Source: Candidatus Kapaibacterium sp.
GTDB taxonomy: Bacteria; Bacteroidota; Ignavibacteria; Kapaibacteriales; UBA2268
Assembly (NCBI GenBank): GCA_938031175.1
Contig: CALHGZ010000006.1
Location: 1 to 64,000 of the forward strand
Length of the DNA: 64,000 nucleotides
Direction of reading: 5' to 3'
The position numbers and the translations under genes were made by a program. The notes below the pieces were generated by a model that searched no databases, was not told the DNA's origin, and saw nothing but the letters and a program-made list of their open reading frames with translations. Below, one piece after another: positions 28,784 through 34,211 of this stretch. Every line of letters begins with the position of its first letter. The stretch's first letter is position 1.

Positions 28784-29923
28784 TTATTTGAGCATAGCTC
28801 TGGAAATAACCAACCTCTGAATTTCGCTAGTACCTTCGTAAATTTCTGTAATTTTAGCATCACGTAAGTATCTTTCGGCTCTGAAATCTTCAGTATATCC
28901 ATAACCGCCGTGAATTTGGAGGCATTTATTAGCACAAAATGAAGCAACTTCAGAAGCTTTTAACTTTGCCATAGCTGCTTCGGTACTGTAATTGAGTCCC
29001 ATATCTTTCATCTTTGAAGCTCTCCATCCCAACAGCCAGGCAGCCTGATATTCTGTTGCCATATCAGCAATCATCCATTGAATAGCTTGAAAATTTGCGA
29101 TTGGTTGATCAAATTGATGTCTTTCTTTTGAATAATTAATAGCATCTTCAATTGAAGCGCGAGCGATACCAAGAGCTTGTGCAGCAATTCCCAAACGTCC
29201 ACCATCGAGTGTTATCATTGCTATTTTGAAGCCTTTGTTTACTTCACCAAGTAAATTTTCTTGGGGTACTACGCAATTATCCAGAATTATTTCTGCAGTC
29301 GAAGAACCTCTAATACCTAGTTTCTTCTCAAGCTTACCTATTCTATAGCCAGGAGTATCGCTATCAATAATAAACGCAGAAATACCTTTAGTTTTCTGTC
29401 CTGGGTCAGTTGATGCAAGTAAAACAAAAACACTTGCCTCTTTGCCATTAGTAGCAAAAAGTTTCGAACCGTTGATAACCCATTTATCCCCTTCTAAACG
29501 AGCTGTTGTCTTGGTAGCACCAGAATCAGAACCTGCGCTTGCTTCAGTTAATGAAAAACTACCAATTTTTCTACCGCTTAATAGATCAGGCAAATATTTT
29601 CTTTTTTGTTCCTCAGTCCCAAATCTAAATATCGGGTCACAAACAAGTGATGAGTGAGCTGAAACTATTACTCCTGTAGAGGCGCACCAACGAGATATCT
29701 CCTCAACTGCAATAAAATATGACACAAAATCCATACCAGCACCACCATATTCACTCGGATATGCAATTCCCATAATACCCATCTCGCCCAATTCTTTGAC
29801 TATTTCCTCAGGAAAATAATGCTCTTTATCAATTTTATCCGCAAGTGGAGCTATACGTTCCTGAGCATATTTGGCAATAGTTTCTTTTAACATTTTTTGT
29901 TCTTCAGTCAACAAATAGTCCAT
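28784..29923 (-). CDS. Short-chain acyl-CoA dehydrogenase (butyryl-CoA type)
   Basis: 379-residue flavoprotein of the acyl-CoA dehydrogenase family. It has AYPSEYGGAGMDF, FSLTEASAGSDSGA (FAD/substrate binding), NGSKLFATNG and the C-terminal HGGYGYTEDFRAERYLRDAK. The catalytic Glu sits in IYEGTSEIQ, the position used by short- and medium-chain dehydrogenases. Isovaleryl-CoA dehydrogenase uses a different Glu and normally has Ala or Gly there. Probable substrate is butyryl-CoA, the product of IcmF, or a related short acyl-CoA. AAAGGAA precedes ATG 29923. Divergent from a second paralogue at 30070. Confidence 0.93.
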   Translation of the reverse strand: MDYLLTEEQKMLKETIAKYAQERIAPLADKIDKEHYFPEEIVKELGEMGIMGIAYPSEYGGAGMDFVSYFIAVEEISRWCASTGVIVSAHSSLVCDPIFRFGTEEQKRKYLPDLLSGRKIGSFSLTEASAGSDSGATKTTARLEGDKWVINGSKLFATNGKEASVFVLLASTDPGQKTKGISAFIIDSDTPGYRIGKLEKKLGIRGSSTAEIILDNCVVPQENLLGEVNKGFKIAMITLDGGRLGIAAQALGIARASIEDAINYSKERHQFDQPIANFQAIQWMIADMATEYQAAWLLGWRASKMKDMGLNYSTEAAMAKLKASEVASFCANKCLQIHGGYGYTEDFRAERYLRDAKITEIYEGTSEIQRLVISRAMLK

Positions 29924-29992
29924 TTGATATTCCTTTCATTAGTTTTAAAATTAAACAGTTACAAAATTTATTATAAAATTAGAAAAATTTTC

Positions 29993-30013
29993 GATAAATT
30001 CAATAAATTTATC
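29993..30013. promoter_or_regulatory. Operator-like inverted repeat between divergent acyl-CoA dehydrogenase genes
   Basis: GATAAATT (29993-30000), 5-nt spacer, AATTTATC (30006-30013): a perfect 8-bp dyad in the only intergenic space between two divergent acyl-CoA dehydrogenase genes, 57 nt before ATG 30070. Spacing and symmetry suit a dimeric repressor (for example TetR family). No such regulator is in the window, and the region is AT-rich. Confidence 0.4.
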
Positions 30014-30069
30014 AGTGGATGAATGAATTTTTAGAAAATAATTCTAAATTGATTTTAAAGGAGCCTAAA

Positions 30070-31230
30070 ATGTCACTTAATCGTAATTTGACAGAAGAAC
30101 AAATATTACTTCGAAATACTGTAAGAAAGTTTGCCGAAGAGCTTATCAAGCCAAAAGCCAAAGAATTAGATGAAAAAGAAGAATTTTCATATGAAATTAC
30201 AGCTGAAATGGCTAAAATGGGATTTTTGGGTTGTTTCCTGCCTGAAGAATATGGCGGTAGTGGATTAGACTATGTTTCATATATTATTGTAGTGGAAGAA
30301 ATAGCTCGTATCGATGGGTCCCAAGCAGCTACTATTGCAGCTCATAATTCGCTTGGTGTAGGTCCTCTATACTATTTCGGTTCCGAAAAACAGAAGAAAA
30401 AATATTTACCCAAATTGGCTGACGGTCATCTCTGGGGCTTCGGTTTAACCGAACCTGAAGCTGGTTCAGATGCTGGTAATACTCAAACAACAGCCGTCGA
30501 AGATGGAGACCACTGGGTTATTAATGGTAGCAAAATTTTTATCACAAATGCAGGAACTGATATAACTCTTGGTTCGACTGTTTTAGCTGTAACAGGCGTC
30601 AAATCCAATGGGAAAAAAGAATTAACCTGCTTTATTGTTGAAAACGGCACACCAGGATTTACAATAAAAACTATGAAGCATAAAATGATGTGGCGTGCCT
30701 CAAATACCTGTGAACTATATTTCGAAGACGTACGTGTACCAAAAGAAAATATGCTCGGTAAGCGGGGTGATGGTTTTCACCAAATGCTTGCAACTTTAGA
30801 CAATGGACGATTATCTATTGCTGCAATGGGTCTTGGGCTCGCTCAAGGTGCTTTTGACTACGCTCTTAATTATGCTAAACAACGAAAAACATTCGGCAAA
30901 CCTATTTCAACTCACCAAGCGATTTCATTCAAATTAGCCGATATTGAAATGGGATTAGAGATTGCAAGAACATATTTATACGATGTTTGCAGAATGCTCG
31001 ATAAAAACGAAAAAATAACAAAGGAAAGTGCCATTGCAAAACTCTACTGTTCTGAATTAGCACATATGGCAGCAAATCATTGCGTGCAAATTCTTGGTGG
31101 TTATGGATTGATGAAAGAATATGATGCCGAAAAATATTATAGAGACCAAAAACTATTAGAAATAGGCGAAGGTACTAGTGAAATTCAACGATTAGTTATT
31201 GCAAGAGAAATAGGATGTTACAACATTTAA
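30070..31230 (+). CDS. Acyl-CoA dehydrogenase, second paralogue
   Basis: 386 residues from ATG 30070, which has AAAGGAG 7 nt upstream. The frame extends to an ATG at 30019 without a ribosome binding site. Family motifs: FLPEEYGGSGLDY, FGLTEPEAGSDAGN, NGSKIFITNAG, LGGYGLMKEYDAEKYYRDQK. The catalytic Glu aligns within IGEGTSEIQRL, the short/medium-chain position, with Gly instead of Tyr before it. Only moderately similar to the divergent paralogue, so the two likely take different acyl chains (butyryl-, isobutyryl-, 2-methylbutyryl- or isovaleryl-CoA). Substrate not decidable from sequence. It lies just before the HMG-CoA synthase trio, but a hairpin and about 370 nt separate them. Confidence 0.93.
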   Translation: MSLNRNLTEEQILLRNTVRKFAEELIKPKAKELDEKEEFSYEITAEMAKMGFLGCFLPEEYGGSGLDYVSYIIVVEEIARIDGSQAATIAAHNSLGVGPLYYFGSEKQKKKYLPKLADGHLWGFGLTEPEAGSDAGNTQTTAVEDGDHWVINGSKIFITNAGTDITLGSTVLAVTGVKSNGKKELTCFIVENGTPGFTIKTMKHKMMWRASNTCELYFEDVRVPKENMLGKRGDGFHQMLATLDNGRLSIAAMGLGLAQGAFDYALNYAKQRKTFGKPISTHQAISFKLADIEMGLEIARTYLYDVCRMLDKNEKITKESAIAKLYCSELAHMAANHCVQILGGYGLMKEYDAEKYYRDQKLLEIGEGTSEIQRLVIAREIGCYNI

Positions 31231-31601: not shown

Positions 31602-32654
31602 ATGGTAGGAATTGTAGGTTATGGGGCATATATACCCAAATACAGAATTAAAACATCATCAATAGCTGAGCAATGGGGTAACGACGCAACTACAATCGAG
31701 CAAGGATTAATGCTTAAGGAAAAGAGCGTTCCCAATATTGATGAGGATACTATTACAATATCTGTACAAGCCGCTAAATATGCTTTAAAAAGATCAGGTA
31801 TTGATCCCCAAAAAATTGGTGCTGTCTATATCGGCTCGGAATCACATCCTTATGCTGTCAAACCTTCCGGAACGGTTCTCATTGATGCTTTGGGAATAGG
31901 TCCAGATGTCCACGTAGCTGATTTTGAATTTGCTTGTAAAGCCGGGACCGAAGCTATGTTTGTTGCCTATAGCCACGTAAAATCTGGAAATATGGATTAC
32001 GCCTTGGGTATAGGTGCCGACACTTCTCAAGGAGCTCCATCTGATGCATTGGAGTATTCAGCATCAGCCGGTGGTGCTGCCTTCATTTTTGGCAAAGAAA
32101 ATGTACTTGCTAACGTATTATTCACACATTCATATACAACTGATACGGCTGATTTCTGGCGACGTGAATATATGCATTATCCAAGACACGGTGGAAGATT
32201 TACAGGGGAACCAGCATACTTCAAGCATATATTGGGCTGTGGCAAAGCTTTATTAGAAAAATCAGGATTAAAACCCAGCGATTTTGCTTATGCAGTATTT
32301 CATATGCCAAATGGAAAATTCCCTTTGAAAGCTGGTACTACACTTGGATTTACAAAAAATCAGATACAAGCTGGACTTGTAGTAACAGCTATGGGCAATA
32401 CATATTCAGGTTCATCACCTACTGGTCTGACTGCTATATTAGATATTATTAAGCCGGGCGAAAAAGTATTTATGGTATCATTCGGCTCAGGTGCAGGTAG
32501 CGATGGTTTTATTTTCGAAGCAACAGAAAAAATATCCGAAGTTCAGGATTTAGCACCAAAAACCTGGGACCAGCTCAATGGTAAAAGATTCTATCTTGAT
32601 TACGGCAAATATTTGGCTTATCGCGGTAAAATCCTATTTAATGATATTGTATAA
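31602..32654 (+). CDS. Archaeal-type hydroxymethylglutaryl-CoA synthase
   Basis: 350 residues. It condenses acetyl-CoA with acetoacetyl-CoA to HMG-CoA. The protein follows the archaeal HMGS subfamily almost motif for motif: [27 protein letters not shown] (Glu80), [12 protein letters not shown] (nucleophile Cys112), [40 protein letters not shown] (His234) and [11 protein letters not shown]. That is unlike the eukaryote-type enzyme of many mevalonate-using bacteria. AGGAG precedes ATG 31602. The thiolase and DUF35 genes follow at 19 nt and with 1-nt overlap, the arrangement known from archaea, where the three proteins form one complex that channels acetoacetyl-CoA. Why a bacterium of this kind carries it is discussed in the findings. 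Confidence 0.93.
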
Positions 32655-32673: not shown

Positions 32674-33822
32674 ATGAGAGAAGTAGCAGTAATAGGTATA
32701 GGAATTTCTAAATTCGGAGAACTCTGGGATCAAAGTATCAGAGATATATTTGCCGAAGCAGCTCTTAGTGCAATGAAGAATGCCAATATAAAAAAAATAG
32801 ATGCTTTATACGTAGGTTCGATGTCAAGTGGCCTTTATACAATGCAGGAACACCTAAGTTCATTAATGACTGACTACATAGGTCAGCGTGGAGCCGCAGG
32901 CTTCCGTATAGAATCGGCTTGCGCCTCAGGCGGTTCAGCAATGCGTCTGGCATATTTAGAAGTAGCATCTGGAATGAGTGATATTGTATTAGCTGGCGGT
33001 GTTGAAAAAATGTGGGATGTCGATGATGGCTCCGCAATTCTTGCTACTGCTTCAGATCAAGAATACGAAGCATATCATGGAGTAACATTTCCCGGTCTTT
33101 ATGCAATGATGGCAAAATTATATATGCACCGATATGGTTTGACAAGGGAAGAATTGGCTCAAATTCCAGTTATCAGTCACAAGCATGCAGTAAATAATCC
33201 GAATGCACAGTATCCATTTGAAATCACTGTCGATACAGTTCTTAAATCATCACTTGTAGCTGATCCACTAAGGCTAATGGATTGCTCACCAATAACTGAT
33301 GGAGCAGCTTGCGTTATACTGTGTCCATTGGAAATGGCTAAAGATTTTACAGATAAACCTGTTAAAGTTAAAGCCGTGGGAGCTGCAACTGGAACTATTG
33401 CATTACACGACCATAAAGATATTATTCGTCTTGATGCAGTACGATTAGCCGCGGAACGTGCTTATAAAGCAAGTGGGCTTTCACCTCAAGACATAGATTT
33501 TGTTGAAGTACACGATTGCTTCTCTATAGCTCAAATACTCGTTGCTGAAGAACTTGGATTTTTCAGCTTTGGCGAAGGTGGAAAAGCATTAGCTGAAGGC
33601 CAAGGCACTTATGGAGGCAAAATCGTCATAAATCCAAGTGGTGGACTTAAAGCAAAAGGACACCCAGTCGGTGCAACTGGTATTGCCCAAATTGTTGAAG
33701 CTGTAATACAGCTTCGGGGGGAAGCCGGTAAAAGACAGGTAAATAACGCTAAATTCGGTATGACTCAAAATATGGGTGGTTCCGGTGGTAGTTGTGTTGT
33801 ACATATTTTGGAGGCACTATAA
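32674..33822 (+). CDS. Archaeal-type acetyl-CoA acetyltransferase (thiolase)
   Basis: 382 residues from ATG 32674, chosen because GGAGGA lies 3 nt upstream. The longer open frame (from 32578) runs inside the HMGS gene. It catalyses 2 acetyl-CoA to acetoacetyl-CoA. Thiolase-fold signatures of the archaeal/SCP2-like branch: acyl-binding Cys83 in [23 protein letters not shown], and the catalytic [13 protein letters not shown] near the C-terminus. Its final TAA shares one base with the ATG of the DUF35 gene. The reaction is unfavourable alone. In archaea it is pulled by the HMGS partner in a stable complex. Confidence 0.93.
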
Positions 33823-34211
33823 TGGCAAATAGTCAAAGATACACAAGGGAAATACCCCACAGATACAGACTCGAAGCACAGAAATTTAAAAGTGGATTTG
33901 TATCCTTGTCAAGAAGATATGTTGATCCGGAAACAGGTGAACAGGAATATGAAAAAATCATCCTCAAAGGAACAGGCACGATTTTAACTTATACGGTTAT
34001 TTATGTATCTGCCGATGCTTTTTCCAAACAAACCCCTTTTGTTATTGCAATTATTGAAACTGATGAGGGTGCAAGACTAACAGCACAAGTTGTTGATTGT
34101 GAACCGGAAGAAGTAAGAATCGGTGCCCGAGTCGAGCTTGTTTTCAGGAAAATAATTAATGAGGGGCATTCAGGTATAATTAATTACGGATATAAAGCTG
34201 TACTTATCTAA
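33822..34211 (+). CDS. DUF35 (OB-fold) scaffold protein without its zinc-ribbon cysteines
   Basis: 129 residues from ATG 33822 (TAATG overlap with the thiolase stop, GGAGG 7 nt upstream). It matches the DUF35 protein that bridges thiolase and HMGS in archaea: IPHRYRLEAQKFK at the start, LKGTGTILTYTVIYV, PFVIAIIETDEG, LTAQVVDCEPEEVRIG and VELVFRKI plus GIINYGYK at the end. The rubredoxin-like zinc ribbon normally following 'RYRLE' has CxxC pairs. Here the equivalent segment KFKSGFVSLSRRYVDPETGE has no Cys at all, and the only Cys in the protein is in VVDCEPEE. The OB-fold core looks intact, so the protein is probably functional without zinc. Confidence 0.9.
   Translation: MANSQRYTREIPHRYRLEAQKFKSGFVSLSRRYVDPETGEQEYEKIILKGTGTILTYTVIYVSADAFSKQTPFVIAIIETDEGARLTAQVVDCEPEEVRIGARVELVFRKIINEGHSGIINYGYKAVLI

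Follow-up and report, generated by a model that had tools for sequence, protein, structure and literature searches.

A DUF35 protein encoded with archaeal-type HMG-CoA synthase and thiolase in Kapabacteria has lost all its zinc-ribbon cysteines: a candidate metal-free ribbon

The DNA analysed here (the window) is a stretch of 64,000 nt from Candidatus Kapaibacterium sp. (GCA_938031175.1, contig CALHGZ010000006.1, positions 1 to 64,000 of the forward strand). It carries adjacent genes, all on the same strand, for an archaeal-type HMG-CoA synthase (HMGS), an acetoacetyl-CoA thiolase and a DUF35 protein, the latter being third in the window as in its relatives (Table 1). This order is kept across 40 loci of the family and of its class relatives, two short contigs showing only part of it. 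The HMGS scored 500 bits with TIGR00748, above the cut-off, and 523 bits with NF003274, and it aligned with 6esq_I (E 2e-129) with the motifs of the catalytic Glu and Cys, residues named for the archaeal-type enzyme in PMC6392133, kept. The thiolase scored 540 bits with NF053570, slightly below the 600-bit cut-off, and aligned with 6esq_A (E 2e-117); the nucleophilic Cys85 is present, its motif ESACASGG being aligned to EAACASG of 6esq_A, and the HDCF and GHPVGATG motifs are likewise kept. For all three window proteins the best solved match is a subunit of 6ESQ (E 5e-23 for the DUF35 protein). The one-base overlap between the thiolase and DUF35 genes, which the ORF coordinates also place in the family loci L035, L036, L042, L048 and L049, suggests that the two genes may be translationally coupled. 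Two divergently transcribed acyl-CoA dehydrogenase genes (28784-31230) adjoin the block in the window, and similar acyl-CoA dehydrogenases are encoded beside it in several genomes of the family (L038, L048 and L049).

Table 1. Features of the three-gene block, in window coordinates
Feature	Position	Strand	Evidence
Archaeal-type HMG-CoA synthase, 350 aa, first gene of the block	31602..32654	+	TIGR00748, NF003274, 6esq_I
Acetoacetyl-CoA thiolase, 382 aa	32674..33822	+	NF053570, 6esq_A
TAATG, thiolase stop and DUF35 start, one-base overlap	33820..33824	+	sequence
DUF35 scaffold protein, 129 aa, without zinc-ribbon cysteines	33822..34211	+	ATG 33822, TAA 34211
Remodelled zinc-ribbon segment, residues 20-47, QKFKSGFVSLSRRYVDPETGEQEYEKII, no Cys or His	33879..33962	+	
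First knuckle FKSG, residues 22-25, in place of CxxCG	33885..33896	+	column counts, alignment
Second knuckle DPETG, residues 35-39, in place of CPxC	33924..33938	+	column counts, alignment
OB-fold domain, residues 48-129, conserved C-terminal GIINYGYKA	33963..34208	+	PF01796; AlphaFold pLDDT mostly >90
C93, sole Cys of the DUF35 protein; OB domain, not a ribbon ligand	34098..34100	+	

In the DUF35 protein, Pfam recognized the OB fold (PF01796, DUF35, ChsH2-type OB protein; residues 48-109, E 9e-23, 80.5 bits against a cut-off of 27.1), and no zinc-ribbon domain was matched even at E values up to 1. The segment where the ribbon is expected, QKFKSGFVSLSRRYVDPETGEQEYE, is devoid of cysteine. Alignment to the solved homologue 6esq_E, RCKTCGKVYFPSRTVCPDC, showed other residues at each of the four ligand positions (F22, S24, D35, T38). 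In the first knuckle, C1 became Phe22 and C2 became Ser24, Gly25 being kept and one residue deleted; in the second, C3 became Asp35 and C4 became Thr38, with Pro36 kept. An earlier note made from the sequence of this DNA had claimed that all zinc-ribbon cysteines are lost, and both the ORF and the alignment bear this out, the only cysteine being that of the OB fold. The four-cysteine site CxxC...CxxC is thus absent from the window protein, which, because its residues 20-47 hold neither Cys nor His, is a DUF35 OB-fold protein with a variant ribbon and not a zinc-ribbon protein.

The DUF35 gene is carried by 24 of the 54 genomes of this uncultured Kapabacteria family, in 12 of its 27 genera. In a first sample of these genomes, DUF35 and archaeal HMGS co-occurred in the same 16, and one further genome (G025) had an archaeal HMGS without DUF35. 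Cysteines in close relatives were sought as evidence against the loss, and an in-register CxxC...CxxC motif proved absent from all 24 copies of the family, which come from independent assemblies; most have no ribbon cysteine, a few have one, and those of genera g12 and g21 have three to four. Among 86 distinct HMGS-linked DUF35s from outside the family, four or more ribbon cysteines are present in 80, the archaeal members and all but one of the class relatives included. These frequencies are not unbiased, since the query combined both types and its 80 best matches were taken. The loss thus appears, from these alignments, to be fixed across the family and recurrent elsewhere, which adds to what the earlier note had proposed. 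A local sequencing, assembly or frameshift error in the window might be suspected as its close relatives are all metagenome-derived; its probability is nonetheless vanishingly small, the same state being present in an intact frame in 23 other family copies from independent assemblies, and the relatives coming from several separate projects. Sequence error and chance were therefore ruled out by these further copies.

The absence of the canonical ligands does not by itself dispose of the metal. It could still be bound through non-Cys ligands (Asp35, Glu37, Glu40 or others), through ligands of a partner subunit or, in g21 and g12, through shifted cysteines (C24, C35, C39/C40). A precedent is the DUF35 of CtShy (Comamonas testosteroni, 9MYR), described as an outlier, in which a one-residue deletion in the same first knuckle loop accompanies a rebuilt Cys3His1 site and the zinc loop packs against a helix of the thiolase-fold partner (PMC12329534). 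Within the family, the g21 genomes (L012, L013, L021, L022) have four cysteines, partly shifted (KFECG...CPDNCC), and g12 (L007) has three, also partly shifted (CPDSDC after KFECG); in both genera only C2 and C3 have an in-register cysteine. By contrast with CtShy, which rebuilds its site with a His, keeps zinc and has an aldolase as partner, the window protein offers no replacement ligand, its residues 20-47 being free of Cys and His, and its partners are thiolase and HMGS. In addition, position 35 is D, S or C among family members and positions 37 and 40 vary widely, a behaviour unlike that of ligands. Continued metal binding of this kind is accordingly improbable as an account of the window protein. 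It should be noted that the g21/g12 sub-clade may still bind metal, its ribbon being possibly, to judge from the residues present, a re-engineered or intermediate metal site; since three to four cysteines are kept near the site in these genera, part of the family may not have lost the metal.

We then considered whether the segment is constrained or decaying. Were the zinc site a dead remnant, the segment would be a disordered or dispensable linker and only the OB fold would be used. The ribbon is indeed the fastest part of the DUF35 protein (pN 0.30, compared to 0.20 in the OB domain), and the ligand positions carry differing residues among family members. However, in identity-matched pairs the ribbon/OB pN ratio was 1.46 in the Cys-less family and 1.40 in relatives retaining four cysteines (C4), so that the ribbon is no more relaxed than in these C4 relatives. 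No absolute dN/dS is given for the ribbon because synonymous sites are saturated in all but the closest pairs; in those, dN/dS was 0.054 in the ribbon and in the OB domain alike, six of the seven pairs being g21 genomes with four cysteines. Length is nearly constant, and among 21 family sequences Phe22, Gly25, Arg32 and Pro36 are each found in 21 and Tyr33 in 20, Ile46 being invariant as well; Phe22, Leu29 and Tyr33 are ribbon replacements specific to the family. Finally, the model of this segment has high confidence and can be superposed on 6esq. Decay is for these reasons very unlikely.

The fold prediction itself was made with AlphaFold2, no metal being supplied. The mean pLDDT of the window protein was 90, and 92-94 in the ribbon blocks, and its best PDB match was 6esq (TM 0.87, rmsd 1.7 A, 126 columns). 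A C4 relative modelled likewise also had a 6ESQ chain as its best match (TM 0.91), with nearly the same secondary structure as the window protein. An N-terminal rubredoxin-like ribbon fold is thus predicted to be present (strands 18-22 and 43-47, pLDDT >90). A ribbon is often predicted by AlphaFold whether its metal is there or not, and since the alignment consisted mostly of C4 sequences, the model speaks for compatibility with the ribbon fold and not for stability without metal. The earlier note had regarded the locus as a working complex from which zinc was lost and not as a case of decay; this view is supported by the three-gene block, the catalytic residues, the pN ratios, the near-invariant residues and the predicted fold, so that what the note observed is correct, and its interpretation most likely is too. 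In the thiolase, 12 fixed differences are specific to the family, five of them inside a span of 22 residues (permutation p 0.022). Coevolution of the thiolase surface with DUF35 was not relied on, several of the differing residues being common to archaeal thiolases.

Six DUF35s outside the family have also lost ligands. No ligand is left in L069, a member of the same class (family f26) with the sequence RFTKSG...MVDPETG, nor in L152; ligand positions are lost in L156 and L161, from Calditrichota and a relative, only C1 is left in L144 (KSB1), and the loss is partial in L172 (Zixiibacteriota). On a tree of HMGS and thiolase from which DUF35 was excluded, at least five state changes are needed to account for these six and the window family, and the direction of change is taken as loss because C4 is found in archaea and most bacteria. 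The best tree would therefore place losses in Kapabacteria, in Calditrichota and relatives, in KSB1, in Zixiibacteria and in another family of the Ignavibacteria class. In AU tests, forcing the window family together with L069 lowered lnL by 85 (p 0.062) and forcing it with the Calditrichota group lowered lnL by 45 (p 0.194); as both p values are above 0.05, the independence of the losses is the reading of the best tree and is not proven. L069 closely resembles the window family at the site (F, S, D, T), a likeness which suggests convergence. The route is often similar, C2 being changed to Ser or Thr with the next Gly kept, and C3-Pro to Asp-, Asn- or Glu-Pro. In a three-gene tree with the ribbon columns removed, the family forms a single clade (100/100) with a long stem, but its backbone is not resolved, for which reason no order is stated for the individual cysteine losses inside the family. 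We are slightly inclined to the broader view that the zinc of HMGS-linked DUF35 is dispensable and was shed repeatedly, often by a similar route, the g21/g12 clade then representing an intermediate or re-engineered metal site.

That a protein can lose a structural zinc ribbon and still function is known from the C-plus and C-minus forms of ribosomal proteins (L31, L33 and others). These proteins are unrelated to DUF35 and often occur as paralogues in one genome under zinc control, whereas the single DUF35 copy found for the window's genome lacks the ribbon cysteines. They nevertheless raise the question of whether a lineage-wide move to zinc-free ribbon proteins, not specific to this complex, was the cause of the loss, an explanation that is compatible with a metal-free ribbon. 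In the family copies read (loci L177-L236), L31 and L33 occur only as zinc-free C-minus forms; most class relatives with a C4 DUF35 have a C-plus L31, and C-plus L33 is found in 13 of the 18 class genomes read. Against this, the genome of L069 (G152) has both L31 and L33 in the C-plus form although its DUF35 is Cys-less, several relatives combine a C-minus L33 or L31 with a C4 DUF35, and one family genome (G005) keeps a C4 ribbon in another DUF35 domain (L017). Moreover, one clade carries both traits, so that the association counts as a single event. Zinc economy is on balance a doubtful cause and was not retained as the driver, the C-minus L31 and L33 coinciding with the loss within the same clade and G152 being a counterexample. 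The L017 protein of G005 is HMGS-like with a fused C-terminal DUF35 domain in which C4 is intact, the stand-alone DUF35 of that genome being Cys-less.

Regarding the metabolic context, HMG-CoA reductase was found in six of the sampled family genomes (G000, G009, G013, G016, G030 and G031), among them that of the window, and DXP reductoisomerase is missing in exactly these six. The window's complex thus most likely feeds the mevalonate pathway, and the gene contents point to a probable switch from the MEP to the mevalonate pathway within one family. By score the HMG-CoA reductases form two sets, one at about 278 bits and the other at 349-358 bits, which suggests two origins. Other family genomes (e.g. 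G004, G007, G008, G018 and G020) have the complex together with DXP reductoisomerase and no HMG-CoA reductase, so that HMG-CoA is probably used elsewhere there; many of them also have HMG-CoA lyase. As the ribbon is Cys-less in both metabolic settings, its loss does not track the pathway.

Zinc binding is reported for the DUF35s of known structure (PMC6996347, PMC12329534), through a four-cysteine site in every solved member but CtShy, and in one solved DUF35 the zinc loop is said to shape the substrate pocket of the partner. No zinc-free DUF35 was found among the PDB matches or in the literature searched, which covered a minority of subscription papers; as all solved DUF35s are reported as zinc-binding, a zinc-less one would be a new form of a known scaffold. 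The closest known system is that of Methanothermococcus thermolithotrophicus (6ESQ/6ET9), which has the same three-gene set and subunits and whose chain E has nearly the same length as the window protein but carries CxxC...CxxC, compared to none of the four cysteines and a first knuckle shorter by one residue here. In this system CoA lies at the interface of all three proteins (6ESQ; PMC6392133), and the cleft between ribbon and OB domain contacts the thiolase (6et9; PMC6996347). In the homologous PhlACB acyltransferase (5M3K), the DUF35 subunit PhlB also bridges HMGS-like and thiolase-like subunits (PMC6392133); it differs from the window protein in that its Cys4 site is conserved and its chemistry is another.

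Taken together, the sequence, synteny, conservation, phylogeny and predicted fold make it likely that the window protein has a metal-free ribbon within a working three-protein complex, the zinc core being replaced by aromatic packing and tight turns; from the same evidence we infer the absence of bound zinc, the formation of the complex, channelling and the aromatic-core mechanism. The ribbon fold would be kept by the two strands and by the remaining G, R and P turn residues. The zinc site would have given way to a small hydrophobic and aromatic core, with Phe22 for Cys1, Tyr33 for a Leu and Leu29 for a Phe, and the CxxC knuckles to the tight turns xSG and [DS]PxxG. Thiolase and synthase would still be joined by the scaffold, whose ribbon/OB cleft would lie against the thiolase, and acetoacetyl-CoA could thereby be handed between the active sites without release. 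The metal may be dispensable because the ribbon is held between its partners, and low zinc may have favoured its loss.

For engineered mevalonate or HMG-CoA pathways, metal-free versions of the scaffold may be the easier ones to work with. The DUF35 proteins form a natural series that runs from four cysteines to none by way of shifted and partial sets, while the order of the partner genes and the catalytic residues of their products stay the same, and this series makes the role of zinc testable, whether it lies in fold stability, in assembly or in tuning of the thiolase pocket.
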